A DNA stretch of 18,644 nt from Actinomycetes bacterium. Its GTDB lineage: Bacteria > Actinomycetota > Acidimicrobiia > Acidimicrobiales > RAAP-2. Of the stretch, positions 3,273 to 17,272 are shown one piece after another (position 1 is the first letter of the stretch; every line of letters starts with the position of its first letter). The stretch is taken from contig JAJYWG010000468.1 in the NCBI GenBank assembly GCA_021791615.1, positions 1 through 18,644 of the forward strand. The letters are read 5' to 3'. The notes beneath the pieces are model-generated. The model saw only the letters and a list, made by a program, of their open reading frames with translations, was not told the DNA's origin and searched no databases. The position numbers were made by a program, and so were the translations under genes.

Positions 3273-3329
3273 GTTCCCAGCCTGAGGGTAGGAGCAGCGC
3301 AGAGGAAGTGCGATTCTCCTTGCGTACCG

Positions 3330-3344
3330 ATAATGTTTCCTTAT
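3330..3344. promoter_or_regulatory. Promoter and possible LysR operator in the yeiH-lysR gap
   Basis: TAATGT (3331-3336) lies 6 nt before the ATG at 3343, a leaderless -10 box. The same bases form ATAA-N7-TTAT (3330-3344), a short inverted repeat of the AT-rich kind LysR proteins bind. No good -35 box is seen, as is common for activator-dependent promoters. Confidence 0.4.
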
Positions 3345-4260
3345 GCCTCTGCCCGAGCCGGTCCCGGACCTGGTCTCGCTCGACCTGCTCGACAGCGTGG
3401 TCCAGCTCGGGTCGATCCGACGGGCCGCCGTGGCCCATGGCATCAGCCAGCCGGCCGCCAGCATGCGATTGCGGGTCCTCGAACGGGCTCTGGGCCTCGC
3501 CTTGCTGGATCGCTCCGGTGGCCGGGCAACGCCAACCCTTGCCGGTGAGGCGGTGAACGAATGGGGTCGGCGCGTCCTCGACGCGACGCGCGACCTGCTC
3601 ACCGGAGCCGAGGCGTTGCGTCACGACGGACGGACGCAAGTGCGGATCGCCGCCAGCATGACGGTTGCCGAGTACCTCGTGCCCGGGTGGCTCCAGCGCA
3701 TGGCCCTCGCGATGCCCGAGGTGACGGCGTCGCTCCAGATGGGCAATTCGGAGCAGGTGGCCGCAGTGGTGGCTGCCGGGGGGGCCGATCTCGGGTTCGT
3801 CGAGGGTCACGCCGTCCCGGCAGGGATGGAGAGCCGCACTGTCGTGGCCGACGAGCTGGTGGTAGTGGTGACACCGTCGCACCCGTGGGCCCGCCGCCGC
3901 CGGCCCGTCAGCGCAGACGAGCTCGCGAGGACCCCTCTCGTCGTGCGCGAACGGGGATCGGGCACGAGGGATGTGCTCGAGACCGCGCTCGGCCGCTTGG
4001 ACCTCACGGTCACGGCTCGAGTCGAGCTGGGCTCGACGACGGCGATCAAGACGGCGATCCAATCGGGCACGGGTCCCTCCGTGCTGAGCTCGCTGGCCGT
4101 ACGGGCAGAGACCGAGGACGGGCGGCTGGTCGTCGTGCCCGTGGCCGACCTCGCGCTCCGCCGGGCGATCCGAGCCGTGTGGGCCGAGGGCCGGCCGCTC
4201 TCGAGGGCGGCCGCCGGGTTCTTGGCCGCCGCGGGGCACCATCGGGCCGCGGGGCCCTGA
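3343..4260 (+). CDS. LysR-family transcriptional regulator, YeiE-like
   Basis: A 305-aa regulator with an N-terminal winged helix-turn-helix (about residues 10-68; SIRRAAVAHGISQPAASMRLRVLERALGLALLDRS) and a C-terminal two-lobe periplasmic-binding-like effector domain (about 95-295). It is transcribed away from the YeiH-type gene, as yeiE is from yeiH in enterobacteria, where YeiE has been linked to sulfite response. By context it probably regulates the transporter and itself. The ligand cannot be read from the sequence. It converges with another LysR gene 13 bp past its stop. Confidence 0.9.
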   Translation: MPLPEPVPDLVSLDLLDSVVQLGSIRRAAVAHGISQPAASMRLRVLERALGLALLDRSGGRATPTLAGEAVNEWGRRVLDATRDLLTGAEALRHDGRTQVRIAASMTVAEYLVPGWLQRMALAMPEVTASLQMGNSEQVAAVVAAGGADLGFVEGHAVPAGMESRTVVADELVVVVTPSHPWARRRRPVSADELARTPLVVRERGSGTRDVLETALGRLDLTVTARVELGSTTAIKTAIQSGTGPSVLSSLAVRAETEDGRLVVVPVADLALRRAIRAVWAEGRPLSRAAAGFLAAAGHHRAAGP

Positions 4261-4273
4261 ACGGGCGGACCCG

Positions 4274-5302
4274 TCAGGAAGCGCGCGTGCCGGCGACCGG
4301 GTGGAGACCGCTCGGCACGTGATCGGCCTCTTGGACGATGACGTAGAGCAGGTCGATCACCGCACGCGTCGGTGCCGAGGGCAGCCCGCGGCTCCGCAGT
4401 GCGACGCCAACTTGGCGCCGGGGGAAGCCCTCGATCGGGATGAGACGGAACCGGTCCCTCTGGTTGCCCGGAACCGCCGATGCCGGGAGGATGGCCGGGC
4501 CGTACCCGTCGAACGTGAGGGAGGCGATCATACGGAGGCCGTCGACTTCGATCGAGGGGTGGAGCACGACACCTGCCGGCCGCACGGTCGCATCGATCTC
4601 GTCGCGCAATGCGGTGCCCGGCAGTGGGAGGAGCAGCTCGAGGTCGCCCAGTGCCGACACCGCGATCGGCGGCAGCGCGTCCGGCTCGGCATCGATCCCG
4701 CCGCTGCCGCCATCGTGGGCACCCGTGCCCGGGGTCGAGCCGTTCGCCAGGTGCCGCTGCGACGCGGTCGCGCCCTTGGCGACCAGTGGATGGTCGGCAG
4801 GGACCACGAGCACGAGGTCTTCTTCGAACAGCGGCGAGGCCGCCAGCTCGTCGCCGGGCACCGGCATCGTGACCACCGCCAAGTCGAGCTGGCCCGAGAC
4901 CAAGCGCGGCTCGAGCGTGGTGCTCGTGCCGTCGGCCACGGTCATCTGGACCCGGGGGTAGCGCTCCCGAAGGCGGCTGAACAGACGAGGCACCAGCCAT
5001 CGTCCGGTGGTGCCGATCATCCCGACCCGGACCGTGCCGCTCACGTCATGGCGCATCGCGCCCACGTCAGCCACCATCGCGTCCATCTCGGCCAGCATCC
5101 GCCGGGTCCGGGCGACCACGACCTCGCCTTCCTCGGTCAGCCGGCCGCTCGAGCGGTCGACCAGCATCACGTCCATCTCCCTCTCCAAGCGGGCCACATG
5201 GGCCGAGACGTTGGATTGGACGGTGCCGAGGGACTCGGCAGCGGCCGAGAAGCTCCCGGTGTCGGCGATGCCGACCAGTGCTTGCAGATGTTTTATGTCC
5301 AC
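4274..5302 (-). CDS. LysR-family transcriptional regulator
   Basis: A 342-aa LysR protein. The HTH is at residues 1-60 (MDIKHLQALVGIADTGSFSAAAESLGTVQSNVSAHVARLEREM) and the effector-binding domain at about 90-320. It is longer than the usual ~300 aa because of a Gly/Ser/Asp-rich loop at about 185-212 between the two lobes, and it has a short C-terminal extension. The start is GTG 5302, directly at the conserved DIKHLQ. No ribosome binding site is evident. It is divergent from the HAD-PlsC gene across a 259-bp region with direct repeats, so it may regulate that operon, but nothing proves this. Confidence 0.9.
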   Translation of the reverse strand: MDIKHLQALVGIADTGSFSAAAESLGTVQSNVSAHVARLEREMDVMLVDRSSGRLTEEGEVVVARTRRMLAEMDAMVADVGAMRHDVSGTVRVGMIGTTGRWLVPRLFSRLRERYPRVQMTVADGTSTTLEPRLVSGQLDLAVVTMPVPGDELAASPLFEEDLVLVVPADHPLVAKGATASQRHLANGSTPGTGAHDGGSGGIDAEPDALPPIAVSALGDLELLLPLPGTALRDEIDATVRPAGVVLHPSIEVDGLRMIASLTFDGYGPAILPASAVPGNQRDRFRLIPIEGFPRRQVGVALRSRGLPSAPTRAVIDLLYVIVQEADHVPSGLHPVAGTRAS

Positions 5303-5501: not shown

Positions 5502-5546
5502 CGCGTTCAGGGGAGGTTTCGGCTGCGGAGCGCGTGCCAGAGGTTG

Positions 5547-5552
5547 GTAGCC
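5547..5552 (+). promoter_or_regulatory. Second, proximal -10 box for HAD-PlsC
   Basis: TAGCCT lies 9 nt before the GTG at 5562, in the pattern seen before other genes of this window. It would give a mRNA with almost no leader, bypassing the hairpin at 5465-5501. Confidence 0.3.
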
Positions 5553-5561
5553 TCCCGGGAC

Positions 5562-6959
5562 GTGGGCACCGTGTTCGTCGACCTGGATCGGACCCTCCTG
5601 CGGCAGGCCAGCGGACCGGTCCTCCACTCCGCTCTGGAAGCCGAAGGCGTCGTCCGGTCGGGCCGAACCGTCCCCGGTGACCGCTTGCTCTACGCACTCT
5701 ACGACCGGTTCGGGGAGAACCTCTTCGCGATGGCGCTGGCCCGGAGCGCGGCGCTCATGGCCCGGGGCTGGTCCCAAGAAGGGGTGCGCCGGGCCGGTCG
5801 CCGGGCGGTGGGCGAGCTTGCAGCCCTCGTCGCTCCCTTTGCGCCGGGGATCCTCGCGTCCCTGCGCGACGAGGGGTACCGGATCGTCCTGTCCAGCACC
5901 ACGCCAAAGGACATGATCGCTCCGTTTGCCGAGGCGTGGGGGTTCGACGACGTCATCGCGACCGTCTACGAGGTGGCCGGGGGCTCCTACACGGGTCGTT
6001 TGGAGGGGGGGTTCGTCTGGGGCGTGGGCAAGCTCATCGCCGTCCGCCGCTGGGCCAAGGAGCACGGAGAGGACCTGGCCGCGTGCCATGCCTGCTCGGA
6101 CAGCTTCTTCGACGTCCCGCTCCTCTCGAGCGTCGGCATGCCCCACGCGGTGAACCCTGATCCCAGCCTGGAGGCGGTCGCCGTGCTGCGCCGCTGGCCG
6201 ATCGAGCACTGGGACCGCCCACCGGGAGTACCGTCGATCGCCGGGCTCGAGCCCTACCACCTGCTGCGCCCGTTCGTCGGACCCCAGGCGTTCCCCTACG
6301 CCCGCTTCGACATCGCCGGCATCGAGCACGTGCCCCGCCAGGGACCCGCCATCTTGGCTGCCAACCACCGGAGCTACTTCGACGTCGCGGCGCTGGCCGT
6401 GGTGGCCGCGCGGATTGGCCGACCGGTGAGGTTCCTCGCAAAAAAGGAGCTCTTCGACGTGCCCGGCCTCGGGTGGGCGGCTCGCTCGCTCGGCGGCATC
6501 CCCGTCGACCGGGGCGGGCGCTCCGACCTCTCGCTGCGCCAGGCTGAAGCAGCACTCAGGGCCGGAGAGGTCGTGATCGTCCTGCCCGAGGGGACCATCC
6601 CGCGAGGCGAAGCGTTCTTCGACCCGCTCCTCCAGGGCAAGACCGGCACGGTCAGGCTGGCGTCGGCTACCGGTGCCCCGGTCGTCCCGGTCGGCTTGTG
6701 GGGGACCGAGCGGGTGTGGCCGCGATCGGCGCGCTCGCCGCGGGTGACCGAGCTGCGGCACCCACCGCTCGTCCAGGTCAGGGTCGGGCGAGCGGTGCCG
6801 CTGGGCGGCAATGACGCAGTCGCCGACACCCGTACGGTGATGGACGCGATCTCGTCCCTCCTGCCCGAGGAGGCTCGGGTCCACCGGGTCCCGAGCGCCG
6901 AGGAGCTGGCGCGGACTTACCCGCGACGGCAGTCGGCCGGCCGGGCGAGCCAGGAGTGA
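5562..6959 (+). CDS. HAD-IB phosphatase / PlsC acyltransferase fusion protein
   Basis: A 465-aa two-domain enzyme. The N-terminal HAD-IB (SerB-like) domain (about 1-225) has DLDRT (Asp7, Asp9), the Ser/Thr motif in RIVLSSTTPKD, a Lys near 157 (GKLI) and DSFFD (180-184), so the catalytic set looks complete. The C-terminal PlsC domain (about 240-440) has NHRSYFD (HX4D at 269-274) and LPEGTIPRG (EGT at 343-345). Similar fusions are known in actinobacteria and are thought to act in phospholipid synthesis: acylating lysophosphatidate and possibly dephosphorylating a phospho-intermediate. GTG 5562 was chosen because it lies just before the first HAD strand, 9 nt after TAGCCT; TTG 5544 and GTG 5571 are alternatives. 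The stop overlaps the murT start by 4 bp (GTGA). Confidence 0.88.
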   Translation: MGTVFVDLDRTLLRQASGPVLHSALEAEGVVRSGRTVPGDRLLYALYDRFGENLFAMALARSAALMARGWSQEGVRRAGRRAVGELAALVAPFAPGILASLRDEGYRIVLSSTTPKDMIAPFAEAWGFDDVIATVYEVAGGSYTGRLEGGFVWGVGKLIAVRRWAKEHGEDLAACHACSDSFFDVPLLSSVGMPHAVNPDPSLEAVAVLRRWPIEHWDRPPGVPSIAGLEPYHLLRPFVGPQAFPYARFDIAGIEHVPRQGPAILAANHRSYFDVAALAVVAARIGRPVRFLAKKELFDVPGLGWAARSLGGIPVDRGGRSDLSLRQAEAALRAGEVVIVLPEGTIPRGEAFFDPLLQGKTGTVRLASATGAPVVPVGLWGTERVWPRSARSPRVTELRHPPLVQVRVGRAVPLGGNDAVADTRTVMDAISSLLPEEARVHRVPSAEELARTYPRRQSAGRASQE

Positions 6960-8236
6960 GCTGGAGCCCACGGGGCGCGGCCGCGGCCGTGGCCGTGCGG
7001 GCCGCCGGCTCGCTCGCCCGAGGGCTCGGCGCCGGTGCGGGGACGGTCATCGGCGGGCGCGTCGGACTGGGTCTTGACCCCGGGCTCCTCGAGCGGCTTG
7101 GGTCCAAGAGGCGCACGGCGGTCGTGAGCGGGACCAACGGCAAGACGACGACGACCCGGCTGCTCGCGGCGGCGATCCAGGCCTCCTCGGATCCGGACGA
7201 TCCGGTCGTCACCAACGCTGCGGGGTCCAACATGCCGGCCGGCCTCGTCGCGGCGCTCGCGGCCGGGCGCCCGGGTGCGCCGGCCGTGCTCGAAGTGGAC
7301 GAGGGGTACCTCCCGCGCGCACTCTCCGCGCTCGCACCGCAAGCCGCCCTCCTCCTCAACCTCTCGCGGGACCAGCTCGACCGCACCAGCGAGGTCCGGA
7401 TGCTGTCGAACCGGTGGCGCGACGCGTTGGGTGGGGCACCGGGGACCACCGCCGTGGCCAACGCCGACGACCCTCTGGTGGTCTGGGGTGCCGGCACCGC
7501 TCACCGGGTCGTCTGGGTCGCCGCCGGGCTCAACTGGACGTCTGATGCCGCGGGCTGCCCTGCTTGCAGCGGTCGGATCACGTTCGCCAGCGCTCCGGGC
7601 GGCGGGTGGTCGTGCCAGTGCGGTTTCTCTCGTCCGGATCCCGACGTGACGGTGTCGCACGACGCGGCCGGCCGTACGTGGTCCGTCGGGAGGGATGGAC
7701 GCCGCCTCTCGGTCGAGCTTGCCCTGCCCGGGCGCTTCAACGCCTCCAACGCCGTGATGGCAGCGTCGGCTGCCGGAGTGCTCGGCGTCGACCCGGCCGC
7801 CGCCCTCCAGGCGATGGCCGCTGTGGGATCGGTCGGCGGGAGGTTCTCGGTCAGGGACATCGCCGGGGTGCGGACGCGCCTGCTCTTGGCCAAGAACCCC
7901 TCTGGTTGGCGCGAGCTGCTCGACCTCGTCGCCGGCGAGCGCCGACCGGTGGTGGTGGCGATCAACTCCCGGGTGGCCGACGGATGCGATCCGTCGTGGC
8001 TGTGGGACGTGGAGCTCGAGCGCCTGCGAGGGCGTGTGGTGGTCGCGGCGGGGGAGCGGGCCCACGACCTCGCGGTGCGCCTCCGTTACGCCGAGGTCGA
8101 GCACCGCACTTGCACCGACACGGTACGAGCGGTGGCCGAGGCTGCGGCATCGTCCAAGGTGTCCGAAGACGAGGACGTCGCGGTGGACCTCATTGCCAAC
8201 TACACCGCGTTCTTCGACCTGGCGGGCCGGCGTTGA
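6956..8236 (+). CDS. murT: Lipid II isoglutaminyl synthase subunit MurT
   Basis: Mur-ligase-like subunit of the MurT/GatD complex, which amidates the alpha-carboxyl of D-Glu in lipid II with ATP and glutamine-derived ammonia at the cytoplasmic membrane. Visible are the ATP P-loop SGTNGKTTTTR (58-68), NLSRDQLDR (135-143), a Cys4 zinc-ribbon insertion (CPAC at 201-204, CQC at 220-222), and the C-terminal DUF1727 region with NSRVADGCDPSWLWD (337-351) containing the conserved Asp345 of the DxSW motif. Length is 426 aa, normal for MurT. The GTG start overlaps the upstream stop by 4 bp and its own stop overlaps gatD by 4 bp, so the three genes are translationally coupled. Confidence 0.93.
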   Translation: MSWSPRGAAAAVAVRAAGSLARGLGAGAGTVIGGRVGLGLDPGLLERLGSKRRTAVVSGTNGKTTTTRLLAAAIQASSDPDDPVVTNAAGSNMPAGLVAALAAGRPGAPAVLEVDEGYLPRALSALAPQAALLLNLSRDQLDRTSEVRMLSNRWRDALGGAPGTTAVANADDPLVVWGAGTAHRVVWVAAGLNWTSDAAGCPACSGRITFASAPGGGWSCQCGFSRPDPDVTVSHDAAGRTWSVGRDGRRLSVELALPGRFNASNAVMAASAAGVLGVDPAAALQAMAAVGSVGGRFSVRDIAGVRTRLLLAKNPSGWRELLDLVAGERRPVVVAINSRVADGCDPSWLWDVELERLRGRVVVAAGERAHDLAVRLRYAEVEHRTCTDTVRAVAEAAASSKVSEDEDVAVDLIANYTAFFDLAGRR

Positions 8237-9072
8237 CGCTCACGGTTGTCGTCGTCTACCCCGAGCTCCTCGGCACCTACGGCGACGGGGGGAACGGTGT
8301 CGTCTTGTGGCAGCGGGCGCGCTGGCGCGGGATCGAAGCCGAGCTGCGCCACGCCCGTTCGGACGAGCCGCTCCCCGACGGGGACGTGTACTGCCTGGGC
8401 GGGGGCGAGGACGGTCCCCAGGTCGAGGCGGCCGATGCCCTGCTCGCGGACGGGGGTCTCGGACGGGCGGTGGCGGGCGGGGCCGCCGTGCTGGCCGTCT
8501 GTGCCGGCTACCAGATCGTGGGCAACAGCTTTCCGGGAGCTGGCGGTGAGGAGCACCGGGGGGTCGGGCTCTTGGACGTGACGACCGAGAAGGGGCCGGG
8601 CCGACGCGCCGTCGGCGAGATCCTGGCCGAGCCGCTGGACCCAGGGCTCCCGTTCCTCACCGGGTTCGAGAACCACAGCGGGGTGAGCACGCTCGGGGTC
8701 GGGGCACGACCGCTGGCGCTGGTGCGGGTCGGCACGGGCAACGGCACGAGCGACGGTGGCGAGGGCACGGCAACCACCGGCAATGGCAAGGGCAAGGGCG
8801 ACGGCATCCCTGTGCGCGGTCGCCGGGGGGTGCTCACCGAAGGCGCCCTATCGGGCCGGGTGGTCGGCACCTACCTGCACGGGCCGGTGCTCGCCCGGAA
8901 CCCGGCCTTGGCCGACCTGGTCCTCGGCTGGGCCGTGGCCCACTGGGCCTCGCGTCGAGGAGAAGAGCCCCCCGTCCTCGGCCTGCTCGACGACGCGGAG
9001 GAGGGAGCGCTGCGGGCCGAGCGCCTGGCGGCTGTCCGAGGCCGCAGGAGCCGGCGGTCGGCTGTCCGGTGA
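8233..9072 (+). CDS. gatD: Lipid II isoglutaminyl synthase glutaminase subunit GatD
   Basis: Class I glutamine amidotransferase partner of MurT; it hydrolyses glutamine and passes ammonia to MurT. The start is TTG 8233 (TTGA overlap with the murT stop), giving MTLTVVVVYPELLGTYGDGGN, the typical GatD N-terminus. The nucleophile is Cys90 in AVLAVCAGYQIVG, and the catalytic His is His216 in GTYLHGPVLARNP. GGGEDGPQ (56-63) is the family's glutamine-site loop. At 279 aa it is longer than usual (about 240) because of a Gly/Thr/Lys low-complexity insert at about 168-191 and an Arg-rich tail. The stop lies 2 bp from the stop of the convergent acyltransferase. Confidence 0.92.
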   Translation: MTLTVVVVYPELLGTYGDGGNGVVLWQRARWRGIEAELRHARSDEPLPDGDVYCLGGGEDGPQVEAADALLADGGLGRAVAGGAAVLAVCAGYQIVGNSFPGAGGEEHRGVGLLDVTTEKGPGRRAVGEILAEPLDPGLPFLTGFENHSGVSTLGVGARPLALVRVGTGNGTSDGGEGTATTGNGKGKGDGIPVRGRRGVLTEGALSGRVVGTYLHGPVLARNPALADLVLGWAVAHWASRRGEEPPVLGLLDDAEEGALRAERLAAVRGRRSRRSAVR

Positions 9073-9074
9073 GG

Positions 9075-10055
9075 TCAGCTCGCCGGCCAGGTCCGCTCGC
9101 CGTGCTCCGGTCCCGGGGGAGAGGGCAGGGCCCACGAGCGGCGCCAGGGGGACACATCGGGTCCGGCGGGCGACGGGGTGCTGCCCGCACCAGCGCGCCG
9201 GCGTGCCGACCACCAGTCGGTCGACACCTCGTCGGCGAGGAGCGCCACTGCCGCTTCGATCCGGGCACCGAAACGCCGGGCGTCCTCGCCTTCGGCACAG
9301 ACGAGCGGCGCGCCGAACATCACGCTCACCGGCGCCCGGCGGAGCGATCGTCGGCCCCGTACCTCGCTGCCTGAGCCACCGGCCGGCTGCCCGGCAGGCC
9401 CGGAGCGGACCGGAGGGGATTTCTTCAGGATCTCACGGGTGCCGTGGAGGTACACCGGCACGACGGGCCGGCCGGTGCGCCGCGCCAGGTAGGCGGCCCC
9501 GCCCCGGAACGGCTGGAGCCATCCATCGGGCGACCGTCCTCCTTCGGGGAAGATGACGAGGCTCCACCCTTCCTCCAAGAGCCCGGCAGCAACGTCGGCC
9601 GACCTGCGGTTGACCTTGGTGCGCTCGATCGGGACTGCCGCAAGCGCGAACGACCACAAGGCAGCTTTCCACGTGGTGTCGAAGAAGTAGTCGGAGGCGG
9701 CGGCCACCACGGTGTGGTGCCGAAACCGCACCGGCAAGGTGGCGAGCAGCAGGGGGGTGTCGGCGTGGCTCGCGTGGTTCGCCGCGAAGATGACCGGCGC
9801 CTCGAGCAGTCCGAGGTGTTCTTCGCCCCGGGTCGTGGTCGGGGCCACCACGCGGGCCACCGGCCGCGTGACGCCGTCGAGGAGCATCGCCCGAGCCAGC
9901 CGGACCGGGTAGCGCCGGGACCACGCGTGGTCGTAGACGAGCCCGGTCCGCCGTTCGGGGGCGGGACGGGGCAGGCTCGAGGGCCACGCCGGCGCCGACA
10001 GGGGGAACGGGAGCCGGCTGAGACGAGAGGTGACGGCGCGCAGGGACCGGCTCAT
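9075..10055 (-). CDS. 1-acyl-sn-glycerol-3-phosphate acyltransferase (PlsC family)
   Basis: A 326-aa acyltransferase, probably membrane-associated, last gene of the four-gene operon. PlsC motifs are NHASHADTPLL (HX4D, His94 and Asp99), VPIERTKVNRRS (motif II region, 141-152) and IFPEGGRSPDG (EGG at 171-173), followed by the VPVYLHG strand (199-205). The N-terminus has a Pro-rich tail (~35 residues) and the C-terminus is extended and Pro/Arg-rich. It would transfer an acyl chain to lysophosphatidate or a related acceptor; given the reductase and LarA-like neighbours the acceptor may be unusual. ATG 10055 overlaps the previous stop (ATGA). It is distinct from the acyltransferase domain at 5562-6959. 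Confidence 0.88.
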   Translation of the reverse strand: MSRSLRAVTSRLSRLPFPLSAPAWPSSLPRPAPERRTGLVYDHAWSRRYPVRLARAMLLDGVTRPVARVVAPTTTRGEEHLGLLEAPVIFAANHASHADTPLLLATLPVRFRHHTVVAAASDYFFDTTWKAALWSFALAAVPIERTKVNRRSADVAAGLLEEGWSLVIFPEGGRSPDGWLQPFRGGAAYLARRTGRPVVPVYLHGTREILKKSPPVRSGPAGQPAGGSGSEVRGRRSLRRAPVSVMFGAPLVCAEGEDARRFGARIEAAVALLADEVSTDWWSARRRAGAGSTPSPAGPDVSPWRRSWALPSPPGPEHGERTWPAS

Positions 10056-11641
10056 CGCACGTCCGCCATGAGCAGCGGAGGGGTATGGAGGTGGGTGAGG
10101 GAAGGGGACCGCCCGACGACGTCGGTCGCGATCTCCAGCGCGTCGTGCAAGGTGGAGGCCGGGGAGAACCCCATCCGCCGCACGGCCCGGGGGTCGCCCC
10201 CCACCACGATGACACGCCCCAAGTGCTCGAGCGCGTGGGCGCACCAGTACCACATGTAGAACGGATGCACGCCGTGGTACGCGTGGCCGGTGCGGTAGAG
10301 GTGCACGTACCACGGATCGGTGGCGAACGCCTCCTCGTAGACCTTCGACATCACTTCGGGATCGGTGGTCTCGGCGAGGACCTGTTCGAAGAAGTCGATG
10401 TAGCTCGGATGGTGGCCCGGGTGGAACTCCCAAGGGGTCGGATGGCGCAGGATGAGCACGCCGCCTTGGCGGACCACCGGTTGCCCGCGGTAGAGGTTGA
10501 AGAAATAGCCGAGCCCGAGGCAGGCCACGAGGATCGGGTTCATGATCGACCCGACGTTGTACGGGCAGATGTAGGGGAGCCCCATGGTGACGATGTCGGT
10601 CTGCCCGTGGACCTCGACGCCCTGCTGGTCCCAGACGTTGGCCGTCGTCACGGCGTGCACGGCCTCGACTTCGCCCGCTTGCACCGACGTCATGGCCTGG
10701 GGGGAGCGTATGGAGTGGAAGATCTGGCGGGCGACGCGCGGCGGCGTGCGCTCGAGGGCGGCGGCGGTGGCGGCGTAGGTGATCCGATCGCGCACGTTCC
10801 ACTCCCACTCGCGGCGCTGGAGGAACCCGAACTGCGGGGGGAAGGTGTTGCCGTTGAGGGTCGTCTCGATCTGGAAGACCTTCACGCCGCTCTCGGCGAT
10901 GAGCCGTCCCATGCGCCAGTTCGAGGAGTGGAGCTCGGAAGCAGGGGCATCCATGAACGAGCGGCTGTGGCGCATCGTCGTCGGGTTGTGGTGGTGGCGG
11001 AGGCTCCGGTAGCTGGCCAGCCCGGTCGCGACGCTCTTGTGCCCACCATCCATGGAGACGAGGTTGATGTTCACGTAGACGATGAGGTCCCCGGTGGCCG
11101 CCCGCTTGTTGATCTCGACGTCCTCGCCCAGGTCGGTCGTGCCCAAGTGGACGAGATTGTCGGGGTCCTCGGCGTCGTGCTGGGTGAGCAGACCGTGCGG
11201 GGCGAACGCGTCGTAGATCCGGTCGCCCAGCGCGTGGCGCAGCTCGGCCTCGGTCATGCGCCGGTGGAGGGCCAGGGCCGCGACCAGTACGACGTCGTCG
11301 ACCCCGGCCTCTGCCGCCATGTCGAGCACCTGCTCGATGACGAGCTGGCGGACGTCGGGCGCCTGCATCGGCGGGAGGGGCAACGAGACGTCGTCGAAGC
11401 AGATCGTGAGCCGCATGCCGGCCCGCAGGAGGCTCGGCAGCGGTGCGCTGTCGCCGAGCGGGTGCAGCAGGGCATGGCGGATCGCGGCAACCGGGTCGGC
11501 GAGCGGCTCCAAAGGCTCGGGCGCGTAGACGACCCTGCTGCCTTCGGGCAGCGTCTCGAGGCAGAAGCGTTCCCCGTTCCAGAACAGCGTCGGTGGGGTG
11601 GAGCGATCCACCTCGAGCACGAAACCGGGCCTCGGGCTCAC
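10052..11641 (-). CDS. LarA-like (lactate racemase family, DUF2088) protein
   Basis: A 529-aa relative of the nickel-pincer enzyme LarA, whose members racemise or epimerise alpha-hydroxy acids. N-terminal motifs are TICFDDVSLPLPPM (79-92), ALHRRMTEAELRHALGD (124-140, the family G-x-HR-P-MT) and QHDAEDPDNLVHLGTT (154-169). The cofactor region reads GGHKSVATGLASYRSLRHHHNP: Lys202 and His218 are 16 apart, exactly as Lys184 and His200 of L. plantarum LarA, but the position of His174 is Ile192. It is about 100 residues longer than LarA. The cofactor-making genes larB, larC and larE are not in this window. GTG 11641 overlaps the upstream stop (GTGA). Substrate is unknown; context suggests a lipid-related hydroxy acid. 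Confidence 0.85.
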   Translation of the reverse strand: MSPRPGFVLEVDRSTPPTLFWNGERFCLETLPEGSRVVYAPEPLEPLADPVAAIRHALLHPLGDSAPLPSLLRAGMRLTICFDDVSLPLPPMQAPDVRQLVIEQVLDMAAEAGVDDVVLVAALALHRRMTEAELRHALGDRIYDAFAPHGLLTQHDAEDPDNLVHLGTTDLGEDVEINKRAATGDLIVYVNINLVSMDGGHKSVATGLASYRSLRHHHNPTTMRHSRSFMDAPASELHSSNWRMGRLIAESGVKVFQIETTLNGNTFPPQFGFLQRREWEWNVRDRITYAATAAALERTPPRVARQIFHSIRSPQAMTSVQAGEVEAVHAVTTANVWDQQGVEVHGQTDIVTMGLPYICPYNVGSIMNPILVACLGLGYFFNLYRGQPVVRQGGVLILRHPTPWEFHPGHHPSYIDFFEQVLAETTDPEVMSKVYEEAFATDPWYVHLYRTGHAYHGVHPFYMWYWCAHALEHLGRVIVVGGDPRAVRRMGFSPASTLHDALEIATDVVGRSPSLTHLHTPPLLMADVR

Positions 11642-12912
11642 GGACGGTCCTCCTCTCTCGGCGTCGGCCTCTGCGGCGGGCGCTGCAGCTCGAAAGCGAT
11701 CTTGACCGCGCCCCGGCTCCCGGCCGAACCGGCGTGGCCCACGGCCTCTTCGAAGCGCTCCAAGGGGTACGTGGCGGAGACGAGCCTCCCGGTATGGGCA
11801 TCGCTGACGACGTCGAACGCCGCCTCGAAGGTGCGGAAGGGTACGGGAGCCGGCTCGGTCCCGTAGGCGTAGGCGCCGCACAGCGTGACCTCGCGGTGCC
11901 ACAGCGACGCCAAGTCCACGTTCACCCGACCGGCCATGCCGACCAGAACGACCTTGCCCCGGGGACGCACCAGGTCGAGGGAGTGCTCGATGGAGGCCGC
12001 CGTTCCGACGCAGTCGAAGACCACCTCGGCACCCCCATTGATGCGTTGACGGCCACGGTGCGAGCTGCCCAGGGCCATGGAACGGGTACGGCGGCGGATG
12101 GCTCGGGAGAGCTGCTCGGGCGGGAGGGTCTGGGTGGCACCGAGGTCCTCGGCCCACTGGCGCTGGTGGGGATAACGGGCGCCCACGACGAGCGCTGAGG
12201 GCGAGGCGAGGTGCCCCCGGGCGCCGAGGCGCGTGATGGCGGCGACCACCGCCAGGCCCAGGGTGCCCGCACCCACCACCGCAACCGTCTCGCCGCCGAG
12301 CAGGCCCGCGGACATGACGGCGTGGACGGCGCACGCCACGGGCTCGACGGTCACTGCGTCGCGGTCGCTCATCGCATCGGGCACGGCGTGGAGCTGGCTC
12401 TCGTGAGCGACCAACCCCGCCTCGGACCACCCCCCGCCCGTGTCCGCGCAGAAGCCGGTCTGCAGGCCCGGCCGGAGGTGCCCGTAGGCCACCATGCGGC
12501 AGTTGCCGGTGCGGCCGGCGGCGCACTCCTCGCACATCGGATCGATCCCGCGGGCGAGACAGCCGAGCACCGGCTCGAGGACCACGCGCGAACCCGGGGC
12601 GAGCGCGGTCCCGTCCGCGGTCCGGGCGCCGTCCGGCACGGTGCCGACGACCTCGTGGCCGGGGACGAACGGGAAGCTCACGATGTCCTCGAAGTAGCGA
12701 GAGCTGCGGCCGTCGAGCGTCGCCAGGTCGGACCCGCAGATGCCCGAGAGCAGCGGGGCGACGCGGTGCCATCCGGACCCGAGGAGCGCGGGCGCCGCTC
12801 CGTCGACCAGGCGCAGGGGCCCGAGCCCGGCGCCGCGTCCGGATCCCATTGCCGAGATCGCACGGGCTGCGGCGAAACGGATCGGTCGCCGCTCGACGAC
12901 GAGGCTGCTCAT
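11638..12912 (-). CDS. Zinc-dependent alcohol dehydrogenase (MDR family)
   Basis: A 424-aa medium-chain dehydrogenase/reductase. The catalytic zinc site is Cys59 (GICGSD), His86-Glu87 (GHE) and probably Glu190 (VEP). The structural zinc lobe has Cys118, Cys127, Cys130 and Cys138, with a longer first spacing than usual. The Rossmann motif is VGAGTLGLAV (213-222). An insertion of about 30 basic residues (about 265-292) splits the cofactor domain. It likely interconverts an alcohol and an aldehyde or ketone with NAD(P). In this operon it could act on the fatty alcohol/aldehyde of the reductase or on a hydroxy acid handled by the LarA-like protein; this is inference. ATG 12912 overlaps the upstream stop (ATGA). 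Confidence 0.9.
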   Translation of the reverse strand: MSSLVVERRPIRFAAARAISAMGSGRGAGLGPLRLVDGAAPALLGSGWHRVAPLLSGICGSDLATLDGRSSRYFEDIVSFPFVPGHEVVGTVPDGARTADGTALAPGSRVVLEPVLGCLARGIDPMCEECAAGRTGNCRMVAYGHLRPGLQTGFCADTGGGWSEAGLVAHESQLHAVPDAMSDRDAVTVEPVACAVHAVMSAGLLGGETVAVVGAGTLGLAVVAAITRLGARGHLASPSALVVGARYPHQRQWAEDLGATQTLPPEQLSRAIRRRTRSMALGSSHRGRQRINGGAEVVFDCVGTAASIEHSLDLVRPRGKVVLVGMAGRVNVDLASLWHREVTLCGAYAYGTEPAPVPFRTFEAAFDVVSDAHTGRLVSATYPLERFEEAVGHAGSAGSRGAVKIAFELQRPPQRPTPREEDRP

Positions 12913-15389
12913 TGGCCGCGCGTGAGAGGGCCGGCGGGTGCCGGGTGGCGAAGTGCGGGACGTGCGGCACGTGCGGCACGTGCGGCATCGAGCGGACCGA
13001 TCGGCAGCGGCCGGTGCGACCCGCCGGCGGCCTTCGCCCAGTGCTCGACGTGCCACCCCCGCCGGCGGGCGATGGCGGCCAGGCGGGAGTCGGGGTTGAC
13101 CGCAACGGGGAAGCCGACCACCTCGAGCATGGCGAGGTCGCTGGCCGAGTCGGCGTAGGCGACGGACTCTTCGAGCGACAAGCCGTGCGTCCCCGCGTAG
13201 TCGGCGAGCAAGAGAGCGCGGGCTTCGCCGATTGGGGGGAGCACGTCGAGACGTCCCGTGTAGCGCCCGCCGTCCTGGCCGAGCCGGGCGCAGACGATGT
13301 CGTCGAACAGCGGCCGGAGGGGAGCGACGACGAAGTCGAGCGCCCCGGTGACGAGGAGAGTCCGGTGACCGAGACGGCGGTGCTCGCGCACCCGGGCAAG
13401 TCCGGCTGGGAACGAACGGGGGAGCAGGTGGTCGGAGAACAGCTCCCAGGCGTCCTCGGCGAGCGCATCGACCGGCGCGTCCTCGTAGCGCCGGTAGAAC
13501 GAGCGGAGGAAATCGCCGCGGTCGCGGCGGTCGAGAGCCAGCAGCTGGGGGGCGTCTTTCACCAACCCGGCCACGAACGCCGCCCGCCGTTGAAGTGGCA
13601 GGTGGCGGCTGGCCAGCCATGCATAGGTGTCGACGACGTTGGAAGCGACGAGCGTGTGCTCGAGGTCGAACACTGCGAGATGGCGGTCGGGCGAGAGGAT
13701 GGCTCGGCGGGCCCGGTCCGGCCGGCGCTCGGCTGGGGTAGTGCGGCCTGGGGTAGTGCGGCCTGGCGAGGTTCGGACGCGGGCGTGCTCGACCACCGAA
13801 GGCAGGTGGATGTCGTGGACGTAGCGGTCCCAGTCGATCAGGACCGGGTCGAAGGGGAAGGCCTCGCGGTCGGCCTGGTCGAGGGACCCGGCGAGGTCGA
13901 GCAGCCGGTCGACCCGGTAGCGGGCTTCGGTCTCGGTGTACGCGCCGTACAGCTCGACGTACCCGAGGGCACGGGAGGCCAAAGTATGGCGGTCTTGGAT
14001 GCGGGCGGCGAGTGACGCCTGCCGACCGCGCACCGGCAGGGCGGTGATCGCTCTCTCGACGAGCTCCATGGTCCGGGTCGCCCGCTGGAGCTGGCGTTGC
14101 ACCCTGCCCCGCCCCGGGAACGACCAGGCCGGCACGCTGATCGGCTGGCCCCGATCGTCGTAGAGGGGGTGGCGGCCGAACCAGTCCTGGACGAGGTCCA
14201 CCAAGCGGCCGTAGCGAAGCGGGTTCCGGACTCCCGACGCGACGTGGTACACCGACGGCTCGCCGTCCGGTCCATGGGCGGCGACAGCCAGGATGGCGGC
14301 TACCACCATGTCGACCGGGATGACGTCGATGACCCCTTCGGGCACGCCGGGGAACTCGCGCAGCAGCCCGCGGGCGTACGAGACGATGATGGGCTCGGCC
14401 ATCCTGAACCCCCGGATCCACCCGGGGTACGGCTCGGCCAGCGCCGACTCGATGATCGACGGGCGGACGATGGTGAGGGGTACCTGTGTGCCCGTCGGGG
14501 TGGCTGGGGTGGCTGGGGAGCCCATCCCGTACTGGTCCACCAGGGCTCGTTCGCCCAGGGCTTTGGTGAACGGATAGGCGTCGGGCCACCCGAGCGACCT
14601 GGCCCGGGCCGTGCCGGCCTCCACAAGAGAACGGCGCACCCAGTCCTCGCGGAGCTTTTCCGCACGCTGGGCCAAGACGTGCTCGCCTGCCCCGCCGAGC
14701 TCTTGGCGCGCCGCCTTGGAGAACCTCGCCAAGTGCTCCTTGCGGCGGGACTCGGCTTGCAGGTCCTGGCTGAGCCCCCGGGCGAACGCCACCTCGGCCC
14801 TCCAGTCGACGTCGAGGGAGTACCGATCGGCACTGAGCAGCTCTTCGCGCGCTTCTCCCTGATGGGTCCCGGCCACGTAGGCGGTGGACACGGTGATGAG
14901 ATGGGGTGGGTCCGCGGGTGCTCGAGCTTCTGTTCCGAACTGTCGCCAGGCCTCGAGCATCGCGGCGGCAACTCGCGAAGGACCCAGGAGGTTGATCTCC
15001 ACCGCTTGATCGAGGGGGGCGTCGAAGCTGACCGTGGCAGCCGAGTGGACGACGACGTCGCAGCTGGCCAGCAAGCGGCGCCCGGCATCGTCGAGGCCCA
15101 AACCGTCCCGGGAGACATCTCCGCCGACCGCCTGGACCCGGCGTTCGCACTCAGCGTCGAACCGCTCACCCCACTCGTTGCGCAGCCGGGAGAAGCAGTC
15201 GTTCTTCAGGATCTCGCGAGCCGTCCGCTGAGCCGGCGTCGCTCTGCGACCGGGCCGGACGAGCACGACGACTTCGCAATCAGGGATCGTCCTCAGGATT
15301 CGCTCGACCAAGGCGGTTCCGAGGAACCCGGTCGCACCGGTGACGAAGAAGCGACGTCCGCTCAGCGTCCGGGCGATGGACATCCTCAC
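12909..15389 (-). CDS. Fatty acyl-CoA reductase-like / HAD-IB fusion protein
   Basis: An 826-aa fusion. Residues 10-400 form an extended SDR domain of the fatty acyl-CoA reductase ('male sterility', NAD_binding_4) type: TGATGFLG (17-24), VHSAATVSFD (114-123), catalytic Ser168 in VSTAYVAG, and Tyr272/Lys276 in YPFTKALGE. A helical insertion lies at about 200-265. A C-terminal FAR-like region (about 420-535) follows. After a Pro/Thr linker (538-553) comes a HAD-IB domain (570-790) with DLEHT (Asp575, Glu577), VTGALD (680-685) and ADSASD (746-751). The usual second Asp is Glu and the motif III Lys is unclear, so phosphatase activity is doubtful. It would reduce acyl-CoA/ACP to aldehyde or alcohol. 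GTG 15389 or ATG 15383 may be the start; both lie next to a TetR operator. Confidence 0.87.
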   Translation of the reverse strand: MRMSIARTLSGRRFFVTGATGFLGTALVERILRTIPDCEVVVLVRPGRRATPAQRTAREILKNDCFSRLRNEWGERFDAECERRVQAVGGDVSRDGLGLDDAGRRLLASCDVVVHSAATVSFDAPLDQAVEINLLGPSRVAAAMLEAWRQFGTEARAPADPPHLITVSTAYVAGTHQGEAREELLSADRYSLDVDWRAEVAFARGLSQDLQAESRRKEHLARFSKAARQELGGAGEHVLAQRAEKLREDWVRRSLVEAGTARARSLGWPDAYPFTKALGERALVDQYGMGSPATPATPTGTQVPLTIVRPSIIESALAEPYPGWIRGFRMAEPIIVSYARGLLREFPGVPEGVIDVIPVDMVVAAILAVAAHGPDGEPSVYHVASGVRNPLRYGRLVDLVQDWFGRHPLYDDRGQPISVPAWSFPGRGRVQRQLQRATRTMELVERAITALPVRGRQASLAARIQDRHTLASRALGYVELYGAYTETEARYRVDRLLDLAGSLDQADREAFPFDPVLIDWDRYVHDIHLPSVVEHARVRTSPGRTTPGRTTPAERRPDRARRAILSPDRHLAVFDLEHTLVASNVVDTYAWLASRHLPLQRRAAFVAGLVKDAPQLLALDRRDRGDFLRSFYRRYEDAPVDALAEDAWELFSDHLLPRSFPAGLARVREHRRLGHRTLLVTGALDFVVAPLRPLFDDIVCARLGQDGGRYTGRLDVLPPIGEARALLLADYAGTHGLSLEESVAYADSASDLAMLEVVGFPVAVNPDSRLAAIARRRGWHVEHWAKAAGGSHRPLPIGPLDAARAARAARPALRHPAPAGPLTRGQ
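12961..12987. repeat. 9-bp tandem repeat in the 3' end of the reductase-HAD gene
   Basis: CGTGCGGCA is repeated three times in tandem, encoding the Ala-Ala-Arg run in the tail of the fusion protein. Being a multiple of three, copy changes would keep the frame. Confidence 0.8.
13736..13765. repeat. 15-bp tandem repeat in the interdomain linker
   Basis: Two identical copies of GGGTAGTGCGGCCTG, which on the coding strand give the PGRTT/PGRTT linker between the reductase and HAD domains. Linker length could vary between strains without loss of frame. Confidence 0.8.
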
Positions 15390-15390
15390 T

Positions 15391-15408
15391 GTCTACCAGA
15401 TGGTAAAT
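15391..15408. promoter_or_regulatory. TetR operator 1 (reductase side)
   Basis: GTCTACC-AGAT-GGTAAAT, an imperfect 18-bp palindrome with half-site GTCTACC. It lies 2 bp upstream of the reductase-HAD GTG start and covers a TACCAT -10-like box of that operon (complement of 15400-15405), so a bound repressor would block transcription. Confidence 0.65.
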
Positions 15409-15411
15409 CAG

Positions 15412-15440
15412 TTGTCTACCATCTGGTAGACACGTACCAT
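15412..15440 (+). promoter_or_regulatory. Promoter of the tetR gene
   Basis: TTGTCT (15412-15417) and TACCAT (15435-15440) with a 17-bp spacer. Seven bases follow to the GTG at 15448, so the transcript is probably leaderless. Operator 2 overlaps the -35 box and the spacer. Confidence 0.55.
15414..15431. promoter_or_regulatory. TetR operator 2 (tetR side)
   Basis: GTCTACC-ATCT-GGTAGAC, an 18-bp palindrome with perfect 7-bp arms. Its centre is 23 bp from that of operator 1, and both share the half-site GTCTACC. Its place in the tetR promoter predicts autoregulation. Confidence 0.7.
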
Positions 15441-15447
15441 CGTGACC

Positions 15448-16122
15448 GTGAGCAGGAGCGCAACGCCGGACCGGATCCTGGACGCGGCGCTGGCATCATT
15501 TGGGACCCGTGGGTACGAAGCGACTTCGCTCGATGCACTCGCTGCGACGCTGGACGTCACCAAGCAGACCATCCTGTACTGGTTCCCGAGCAAAGACGAG
15601 CTCCTGGGAGCCGTGATCGACCGGAGTGCCCGAGAGCTGGCAGCCGCGATGCAGGCCGCGTTGGATGGGGCAGGCGATGGGTGGAACCGTGTCGAAGCGG
15701 TGGTGCGGTCTGTCTTCCGTCTCGCTGCCCGGCGTCCCGAGCTGCTCGGTCTGGTGCGAGAGCTGTCGCGGCTCGGTCCACCGGCCGCCACGCAGATGAC
15801 CCTCGCCCTCGAGCCGCTGGTGCGACGAGCGTCGGACTTCCTCGAGGCCGAGATGGATGCCGGGCACATGAGACGCCACGATCCCCGAATCCTGCTCCTC
15901 GCCATCTACTCGACGGTGATCGGGATGGTGACCGAAGTCGAAGTGCTCCGGGCGCTCGGGGAAGAGCCAACTGCTCGCTCGCTGGTCCGGCGGCGCGCCG
16001 ACGTCCTCAACCTCTTGCGCTCGGCCCTGGTGACCGACGTGGGCGAGATGGTGAACCCGGGATCCGGCTACTCCCCGGAGCCCGCTGCCTCCCGGAGCCC
16101 GCTGCCTCCCGGATCCCGCTGA
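15448..16122 (+). CDS. TetR-family transcriptional repressor
   Basis: A 224-aa TetR protein. The N-terminal HTH is typical: PDRILDAALASFGTRGYEATSLDALAATLDVTKQTILYWFPSKDELL, followed by an all-helical ligand-binding domain to about residue 195. It is transcribed divergently from the reductase/dehydrogenase/LarA-like/PlsC operon across a 52-58-bp gap filled with two palindromic operators, so it very likely controls that operon and itself. The inducer is unknown; an acyl-CoA or fatty acid would suit the targets (inference). GTG 15448 is preferred because it is 7 nt after a -10 box; GTG 15442 is the alternative and adds two residues. The last ~20 residues are encoded by a 17-bp tandem repeat. Confidence 0.9.
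   Translation: MSRSATPDRILDAALASFGTRGYEATSLDALAATLDVTKQTILYWFPSKDELLGAVIDRSARELAAAMQAALDGAGDGWNRVEAVVRSVFRLAARRPELLGLVRELSRLGPPAATQMTLALEPLVRRASDFLEAEMDAGHMRRHDPRILLLAIYSTVIGMVTEVEVLRALGEEPTARSLVRRRADVLNLLRSALVTDVGEMVNPGSGYSPEPAASRSPLPPGSR
16074..16120. repeat. 17-bp tandem repeat at the 3' end of tetR
   Basis: CCCGGAGCCCGCTGCCT occurs at 16074-16090 and 16091-16107, then a partial third copy runs to 16120. The unit is not a multiple of three, so the copies are read in different frames (PEPAAS, then RSPLPP) and any change in number would alter the C-terminus. Confidence 0.8.
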
Positions 16123-16261: not shown

Positions 16262-17272
16262 TCAGTCGGCTTTGGGGATCTTCTTCTTCGGAGGCGCCTT
16301 CGGGGTGTAGCGCTTGTTGGCCGTCGGGGTAGGACGGGAGCGTGCTTGCTGTGGGATTTCAGCCGGACGACGGCGCAGAAAACCTCGACCTGAAGAGCCC
16401 GTTGCCTCAGAGCCGCTGAGTAATCCTGTCGAGCCGACGCCCGCACGCCCGTTGCGACCTGGCCCGGCGCGAGTGCCGCGTGGCTCGCGAGGTCCTGGTC
16501 TCACATACCCCTCCACGGGGGCACGAGCCGTCGGGGAACCGTAGCGCTGGGTGCGCCATGCCCGGAGGAGCAGCCAACCCCCTGCGCCGAGAAAGGGGAC
16601 GATGACAATGAACGTGCCAAAGGCCAGACCGGTCAAGACGAGCGCAAAAGCCACAGGTGCACGGCGTCCGATGCGGACCGTCACGAAAATTGCGAGAGCA
16701 AAGACAAGCCATACGACAAGTGGGAAGACGTAGTGGCTCGGAGGGTAGATGCCATTGCAGGTGGCAGGGCCCTTCCCGTTGGCCTCGTAGGTCAAGTGGT
16801 CAGCACAGGTCTTGTGCAGTGGTTTCACTGTCGTGGCCACGGCAATCTTCGACACCATGTAGGGCACGGTGAAGATGAGGGCGAAGATGGCAGCCAGAAT
16901 TGCTCCGGCGAGGCCGATCTTGCGTTCGGTATCGTCGATCTGGTTGATCCTGGCCCGAATCTCTGCGCCGGTCATCTTCGAGAAATCGGCGGGGGTGGGA
17001 GGAGTCTTGGGGGATCGTGGGGGAGGGGGTTTGAAGAAGCTCTCCTGGAGGCGTTGCCACCCGGTTCTCATCCGAGGAGCTGTCGCAGCGGCGAGGTCCA
17101 TGGGCTCGGCGCCTGTCGCGTCAAACCCGAGGTCGTCGTCGGTCACGTCGTCGTCGGTCAGGTCGTCGCCGGTCACGCCGTCGTCGGTCAGGTCGTCGCC
17201 GGTCACGCCGTCGTCGGTCAGGTCGTCGTCGGTCAGGTCGTCGCCGACAGGGTCCGGCTCGTCGTCTACCAT
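16262..17272 (-). CDS. Membrane protein with acidic repeat N-terminus, function unknown
   Basis: A 336-aa protein that I do not recognise as a named family. Residues 1-50 are an acidic, repetitive, probably disordered segment (DDLTDDGVTG repeats). A Pro-rich stretch (82-94) and a short helix (TGAEIRARINQIDDTERKIG) precede TM1 (about 120-142). A non-cytoplasmic loop with Cys156 and Cys172 (possible disulfide) follows, then TM2 (182-201) and TM3 (205-238), and a long Arg/Pro/Gly-rich basic tail ending KRYTPKAPPKKKIPKAD. Charges are strongly polarised between the tails. ATG 17272 lies 9 nt after TAGCGT. It is monocistronic and divergent from the tRNA gene. Base composition is a little lower in GC than the metabolic genes. 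Confidence 0.8.
   Translation of the reverse strand: MVDDEPDPVGDDLTDDDLTDDGVTGDDLTDDGVTGDDLTDDDVTDDDLGFDATGAEPMDLAAATAPRMRTGWQRLQESFFKPPPPRSPKTPPTPADFSKMTGAEIRARINQIDDTERKIGLAGAILAAIFALIFTVPYMVSKIAVATTVKPLHKTCADHLTYEANGKGPATCNGIYPPSHYVFPLVVWLVFALAIFVTVRIGRRAPVAFALVLTGLAFGTFIVIVPFLGAGGWLLLRAWRTQRYGSPTARAPVEGYVRPGPREPRGTRAGPGRNGRAGVGSTGLLSGSEATGSSGRGFLRRRPAEIPQQARSRPTPTANKRYTPKAPPKKKIPKAD
17131..17240. repeat. 30-bp tandem repeat in the membrane protein gene
   Basis: About 3.7 copies of a 30-bp unit starting GGTCGTCGCCGGTCACGCCG. The copies at 17161-17190 and 17191-17220 are identical; 17131-17160 is a variant and 17221-17240 is partial. A 15-bp sub-periodicity is visible. It encodes the decapeptide DDLTDDGVTG on the minus strand, and the frame is kept at any copy number. 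Confidence 0.85.

Follow-up and report, generated by a model that had tools for sequence, protein, structure and literature searches.

A conserved actinobacterial operon pairing a fatty acyl reductase with a LarA-like nickel-pincer enzyme, and its possible role in ether lipid synthesis

The operon and its conservation

The locus is located on contig JAJYWG010000468.1 of an Actinomycetes bacterium (class Acidimicrobiia, assembly GCA_021791615.1); the whole stretch of DNA that was analysed, 18,644 nucleotides, is referred to as the window. Its central feature is a four-gene operon on the reverse strand. The first gene (12909–15389) encodes a fatty acyl reductase (FAR) fused to a HAD-IB domain (PF07993 NAD_binding_4, PF03015 Sterile, and PF12710), with a product of 826 aa if translation starts at GTG 15389 and of 824 aa if it starts at ATG 15383. 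It is followed by genes for a Zn-dependent medium-chain alcohol/polyol dehydrogenase (ADH; 424 aa, 11638–12912, PF08240/PF00107), a LarA-like nickel-pincer-nucleotide (NPN) enzyme of the LarAH14/15/16 group (LarAH; 529 aa, 10052–11641, PF09861 Lar_N and NF052592), and, as the last gene, a PlsC-type acyltransferase (326 aa, 9075–10055, PF01553 at 75 bits, HX4D motif NHASHAD). Adjacent genes overlap by 4 bp at all three junctions (plus-strand TCAT at 12909–12912, TCAC at 11638–11641, and TCAT at 10052–10055). Both these overlaps and the families of the four genes and of a divergent TetR-type regulator had been described in an earlier note on this DNA, and the family assignments were confirmed by Pfam and NCBIfam profile matches.

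In the reductase, the NAD_binding_4 and HAD domains scored above the Pfam cut-offs, the Sterile domain reached 28.6 bits (cut-off 35.4), and Epimerase was also matched; the nearest solved structure was the fatty acyl-CoA reductase 7eoz (E 2.4e-57). Y272 and K276 of the YxxxK motif were found in 82/82 aligned sequences, the three glycines of GxxGxxG in 81/82 (one row gapped), and the HAD nucleophile D575 in 82/82. Conservation was similar in the ADH (C59, H86, and E87 each in 111/112) and in PlsC (H94 and D99 in 114/114). The solved chains nearest to the ADH were ketose reductase, xylitol dehydrogenase, a putative Zn dehydrogenase, and idonate and sorbitol dehydrogenases.

The regulator gene (15442–16122, forward strand; PF00440 TetR_N at 52.8 bits) is separated from the reductase start by a gap with two operator-like sites of the form TACC-N4-GGTA, which bears out the two operators proposed earlier. 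One is TACCAGATGGTA at 15394–15405, with imperfect outer arms; the other (15417–15428) lies within an inverted repeat (15413–15432) whose 9-base arms match perfectly around a 2-base spacer. The core was present in 48 of the 49 TetR/reductase gaps examined, and a divergent TetR gene in 47/78 operon-type loci with enough flank. The regulator would control the operon through these paired sites; its matches to fatty-acid regulators, among others, were weak and below cut-off.

Gene order in relatives was analysed by tblastn of the window proteins on two sets of loci, one of 80 from metagenome-assembled genomes (MAGs; the best 80 of at least 573) and another of 50 of the operon type, counting among these 130 only the loci with flanks of sufficient length. 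The ADH was located within 8 kb upstream of LarAH in 124/124 loci, the reductase within 8 kb upstream in 84/85 (the one miss, L143, is cut at a contig end), and PlsC within 2.5 kb downstream in 111/123. The 12 loci without PlsC were ten of the Rubrobacter type together with L072 and L087. As the order recurs throughout this set, the arrangement is far above chance, and the earlier suggestion that the genes form one operon and probably work together is supported; loss of gene order in relatives had been named there as the outcome that would speak against it, and the order was found to be conserved. LarAH is the best conserved member (69–91% identity in the first 80 loci), compared with 52–79% for the reductase (a short fragment at 87% left out) and 38–74% for the ADH.

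As a control, the flanks fetched for 20 more distant LarAHs (26–44% identity, L117–L136) contained no such dehydrogenase or reductase domain and gave one HAD-only match; the gene partnership is thus specific to this LarAH subfamily. These distant proteins stand in other gene contexts and have the NPN lysine in 16/20 and the nickel-binding histidine in 17/20 cases. Two database entries that appear to be fusions, ADH-LarAH (P0052) and LarAH-PlsC (P0072), contain out-of-frame stretches and are probably frameshift read-throughs, so they were not used as fusion evidence.

Among the best 120 protein matches each of 6110, 5538, and 6653, the organism names were actinobacterial or belonged to MAGs labelled Acidobacteriota. 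Three MAGs labelled Acidobacteriota or Acidobacteria (L019, L058, and L074) carry the operon, with LarAH 73–80% identical to that of the window; these labels may be wrong. No match was found among 72,556 plasmid records.

Co-occurrence across actinobacterial genomes, a check proposed in the earlier note, was determined in 396 Actinomycetota genomes. LarAH was called above the NF052592 cut-off and FAR-HAD by profile at E up to 1e-100, and since the reductase, LarAH, and AGPS queries were scored against two to three candidates in each genome, the counts are lower bounds. LarAH14/15/16 proteins were detected in 86 genomes and FAR-HAD proteins in 91: both in 82, LarAH only in 4, FAR-HAD only in 9, and neither in 301 (Fisher p 6e-69, without correction for kinship). 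Four of the FAR-HAD-only genomes (G113, G159, G305, and G327) hold LarAH fragments; in the other five (G058, G082, G277, G363, and G372) and in all four LarAH-only genomes (G167, G234, G405, and G412), contigs end in or beside the operon. As all 13 single-gene genomes are accounted for in this way, the reductase and LarAH are in effect an obligate pair in this sample.

Active site and cofactor supply of LarAH

The window LarAH scored 880 bits against NF052592 (cut-off 740) and fits the overall two-domain LarA fold. Residues were counted in an alignment with the 130 LarAHs of the operon-type loci (n = 131). K202 (NPN lysine, Lys184 in LarA), H218 (nickel ligand, His200), and D84 (ribose-binding, Asp72) are invariant, as is H126 (catalytic His108), by alignment the single acid/base histidine. 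Invariant too are Y361, H456, and H459, which by alignment correspond to Tyr307, His398, and His401 of LarA_Sp; Tyr307 and His401 are described as active-site residues in PMC12393405.

Two other positions differ from LarA. Arg75, which holds the NPN phosphate and the substrate carboxylate in enzymes of the LarA, Mar, and GntE type, is replaced (L87 in the window, equivalence taken from alignment to Mar2) by Leu in 119, Ile in 10, and Cys in 2 of the 131 sequences. The second catalytic histidine, His174, has no counterpart at positions 184–200 in 130/131 sequences, that of the window included; the remaining one, L154, has a His at 194. In the single-histidine LarA-like subfamily (LarA_Sp) an invariant Asn takes the place of His174; the operon LarAHs have Asn191 in 131/131 and Asn193 in 129/131 in this region, the alignment being shifted there by one residue. 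Compared with the lactate racemase superfamily, the operon LarAH keeps the NPN lysine, the nickel histidine, and one catalytic histidine, but lacks the equivalents of Arg75 and His174 and is tied to a lipid operon. The single-histidine enzymes LarA_Sp and LarA_Bw (9q2u, 9q3k, and 9q3j) are octamers with Lys in place of Arg75 and a sugar-gene context (PMC12393405), whereas the window protein has Leu at this position and stands among lipid genes.

No proven substrate was found in the literature for the LarAH14/15/16 group. In a 2020 survey (PMC7583248), Frankia LarAH14, of the same group by name, had none of seven hydroxyacid activities, inversion is considered unlikely for groups that lack H174 and K298, and another hydride-mediated reaction is suggested for groups without H174; group 16 was left out there, its NPN residues not being conserved. 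With the carboxylate-holding Arg lost in 131/131 sequences and the second catalytic His in 130/131, a role as an ordinary 2-hydroxyacid racemase is unlikely. The earlier idea of an alpha-hydroxy acid as the substrate of this LarA-type enzyme is thus less well supported, given these residues and the inactivity of LarAH14.

The genes for NPN synthesis were counted in the genomes of 18 loci chosen from the 80 and, for two families, in ten more genomes. LarC was present in 18/18 of them. LarB and TIGR00268, which we take to be LarE, were each detected in 27/28, with the same genome (G017) missing both times. In the larger sample, LarC was found in 76/86 operon genomes and 168/310 others (p 1.6e-9). 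The operon LarAH is the sole Lar_N protein in 13 of the 18 genomes, so NPN would be made for this enzyme there. Taken from the conserved residues and the cofactor genes, the operon LarAH appears to keep its nickel-pincer chemistry.

A possible pathway to ether glycerolipids

We propose that the products of the operon act in a single pathway leading to an alkyl (ether) glycerophospholipid, with LarAH performing a redox-neutral step at glycerol C2. Judged from the sequence data, this reading has a probability of about 0.45. That the operon makes an ether or alkyl glycerolipid at all has, in our view, an even chance; that LarAH itself carries out the ether-forming or C2 redox step is a doubtful part of the proposal. 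More doubtful still is its most specific form, in which LarAH14/15/16 would be an NPN-dependent alkylglycerol-phosphate synthase that parks the C2 hydride on the nickel pincer, forms the sn-1 ether, and returns the hydride.

In the proposed scheme, the reductase would convert acyl-CoA or acyl-ACP (acyl carrier protein) to a fatty aldehyde or alcohol, and the other substrate would be glycerol-3-phosphate, or 1-acyl-glycerol-3-phosphate supplied by PlsY. LarAH would move a hydride from the C2 hydroxyl to NPN, with H126 as the base, and the transient ketone of the dihydroxyacetone-phosphate type would permit O-alkylation at C1, the acyl group being exchanged for a fatty alcohol by the chemical logic of AGPS; for the synthase, the sn-1 ether could arise from a fatty alcohol or from an aldehyde-derived oxocarbenium. 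The hydride would then be handed back to the same face, so that the step is redox-neutral and proceeds with retention. The ADH would reduce the fatty aldehyde or an alkyl-ketone intermediate, and PlsC would add the sn-2 acyl chain. The loss of the second histidine would be explained, as a retention step needs one acid/base His, and the loss of the Arg would fit, as there is no carboxylate to hold. Alternatively, the same parts could reduce a hemiacetal of the fatty aldehyde and leave alkyl-dihydroxyacetone phosphate for the ADH, an enzyme to which the closest solved structures are for the most part those of ketose and polyol dehydrogenases.

Several known systems resemble this scheme in part. 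The elb operon of Myxococcus xanthus, as far as it is described in the text available of PMC9131029, also combines a FAR-type reductase, a HAD domain, and an acyltransferase (ElbB, HAD; ElbD, FAR1-like/ligase/ACP/acyltransferase); by contrast, the four window genes show no ligase or ACP, their fusion is FAR-HAD, and they add a dehydrogenase and an NPN enzyme, which are not mentioned for elb in that text. The animal AGPS pathway (FAR1, GNPAT, AGPS, alkyl-dihydroxyacetone-phosphate reductase, and AGPAT) shares with the operon the fatty alcohol supply, the acyltransferases, and a ketone/alcohol dehydrogenase, but the operon lacks AGPS. The glycerol ester reductase route (PlsA/Ger) would also give alkyl or alkenyl glycerols.

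In the ten Rubrobacter-type loci without PlsC, PlsY, a glycerol-3-phosphate acyltransferase, is encoded directly upstream of the reductase in 9/9 with enough flank, and it is also upstream of the reductase in L198, L199, and L206; both PlsY proteins tested scored above the TIGR00023 (PlsY) cut-off. The R. radiotolerans locus (L150) reads PlsY-FAR/HAD-ADH-LarAH, and its LarAH matches P0121, which is named R. radiotolerans. The abstract of a 2023 study on Rubrobacterales reportedly mentions a putative operon for the synthesis of 1-O-alkyl glycerol phosphate, which may be the operon described here. The title of that paper, which speaks of the 'Dominance of mixed ether/ester' lipids in this order, is cited in PMC11150832.

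Known ether-forming enzymes were searched for in these genomes. The two PF02913 proteins of R. radiotolerans resemble other enzymes more than AGPS: one was matched better by glycolate oxidase (277 bits, AGPS 105 bits), the other by lactate (D-lactate) dehydrogenase (128 bits, AGPS 55 bits). PF09989, presumably a mark of PlsA/Ger, was found in 0/31 operon genomes, and on that assumption the PlsA/Ger route was rejected. As no AGPS or PlsA/Ger mark was found, R. radiotolerans would have to form the ether with a different enzyme, and the one operon member that has no job assigned to it is LarAH. ElbD was rejected as a candidate in Rubrobacter because the other strong NAD_binding_4 protein of R. 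radiotolerans (L218) is an adenylation-carrier-thioester-reductase protein and G059 has no comparable second match; this rejection does not include a sequence search with ElbD.

The earlier note had proposed an unusual-lipid pathway with fatty alcohol, ether, wax, or hydroxy-acyl lipid products. The conserved operon supports a connection of lipid assembly with a nickel-pincer enzyme, and fatty alcohol and ether lipid gain support among the suggested products, but the hydroxy-acyl lipid is retained as a competing explanation only. The operon possibly contains a new enzyme class. Open-licence papers yielded no report on it, and none linking lactate racemase with ether lipids or fatty acyl-CoA reductase; Table S1 of PMC7583248, a list of neighbouring COGs per LarAH group, may already include its context. 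Since LarAH14–16 is obligately paired with a fatty acyl reductase, its substrate can be sought within one lipid pathway, for which Rubrobacter and Egicoccus offer culturable test organisms. If the proposal is true, nickel-pincer chemistry reaches beyond hydroxy-acid isomerisation, and widespread actinobacteria have a further ether-lipid route beside ElbD/AGPS and PlsA/Ger, with consequences for the 'lipid divide' and for lipid biomarkers.

A number of observations weigh against the proposed ether pathway. No ether-forming nickel enzyme is known to us. The DxD motif I of the HAD domain is incomplete, its second Asp being replaced by Glu in 73/82 sequences (window included; Asp in 9), so the activity of this domain is uncertain. 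The tight four-gene overlap is real in the window but not general: the ADH and LarAH are 1.5–6.5 kb apart, with other open reading frames (ORFs) between them, in the Rubrobacter-type loci L143, L145, L147, and L149, and the operon L191 (genome G281) has no recognisable ADH between the reductase and LarAH. A second strong NAD_binding_4 protein is present in 7/8 Rubrobacter-type genomes, the exception, G059, having no second match above 45 bits. The ether lipids of Rubrobacter enter the argument through a paper title in reference lists, and no ether-lipid report was found for Acidimicrobiia (Frankia and Egicoccus were not searched by name). A Phytophthora protein called LarAH15, a label that may or may not denote the same group 15, is reported as a gluconate/mannonate epimerase in PMC11770544.

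Further contrary evidence concerns AGPS and is given with the second of the competing explanations below. The first of these holds that LarAH isomerises, oxidises, or reduces a long-chain 2-hydroxy acid or hydroxyacyl unit, after which the reductase would give a 1,2-diol or hydroxy-lipid and PlsC would acylate it. NCBIfam names the group NPN-dependent hydroxyacid isomerase, the active LarA homologues of PMC7583248 and PMC11770544 use 2-hydroxy acids, and L154 has its His at 194. Against these stand the substitution of the phosphate- and carboxylate-binding Arg throughout the alignment, the missing histidine that makes inversion unlikely in 130/131 sequences, and the inactivity of LarAH14 in all seven assays (PMC7583248), and we regard this explanation as unlikely.

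To the same degree unlikely is that AGPS-like flavoenzymes form the ether where they are present, while LarAH performs another step, such as the conversion of glycerol-3-phosphate or lysophosphatidate to the ketone. No AGPS was found among the operon's own genes (Pfam search), and elsewhere in the genomes AGPS-like proteins were called at E up to 1e-40 with at most three candidates scored per genome. They occur in at least 15/86 operon genomes, while 71/86 show none under these settings, and R. radiotolerans has none among its PF02913 proteins. They also occur in 85/310 genomes without the operon and are thus no specific sign of it; AGPS was therefore rejected as a universal ether partner and retained as a rival where present. 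Among the Acidimicrobiia PF02913 genes unlike both R. radiotolerans proteins, three were tested (L182–L184): G015, the genome of the locus with LarAH 91% identical to that of the window (L037), has the AGPS-like L183, L184 of G003 was also best matched by AGPS, and L182 of G009 was not. In L035, L044, and L049 of the 130 loci, the first 5 kb or so upstream of the reductase include a gene for an AGPS-like protein on the same strand as the reductase, and so it is in L187 and L188, which were chosen because AGPS had already been seen on the same contig. Such proximity supports an ether pathway but weakens LarAH as the maker of the ether bond in these genomes.

It is improbable that the product is a fatty alcohol, a wax ester, or some other neutral or envelope lipid instead of a glycerol ether, with LarAH disposing of or converting a hydroxy or aldehyde by-product. 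The reductase and the ADH would suffice for fatty alcohols, and the faint resemblance of the TetR protein to fatty-acid regulators would agree with this, but no wax synthase was found among the operon's genes (Pfam search), and the partner in the 9/9 Rubrobacter-type loci, PlsY, is a glycerol-3-phosphate enzyme. A purely structural or scaffold role of LarAH without NPN catalysis is very improbable: several LarA active-site residues are changed, and group 16 was omitted from the survey because its NPN residues are not conserved (PMC7583248), but there is no variation in the NPN Lys, the nickel His, the ribose Asp, or one catalytic His (131/131), and NPN synthesis genes are kept even where the operon LarAH is the only LarA (13/18).

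Neighbouring genes in the window

The operon is adjoined by a convergent gene set on the forward strand (5544–9072), in which a gene for a HAD-PlsC fusion comes first and MurT-like and GatD-like genes come next, with overlaps of 4 bp; the HAD-PlsC, MurT-, and GatD-like genes adjoin the lipid operon in this orientation in many MAG loci. Positions 2151–5302 contain a membrane transporter-like ORF (YeiH-like by eye) and two ORFs resembling LysR-type regulators. On the other side, beyond the TetR gene, an ORF on the reverse strand (16262–17272) has an acidic N-terminal repeat (DDLTDDGVTGDD) ahead of membrane-like segments.

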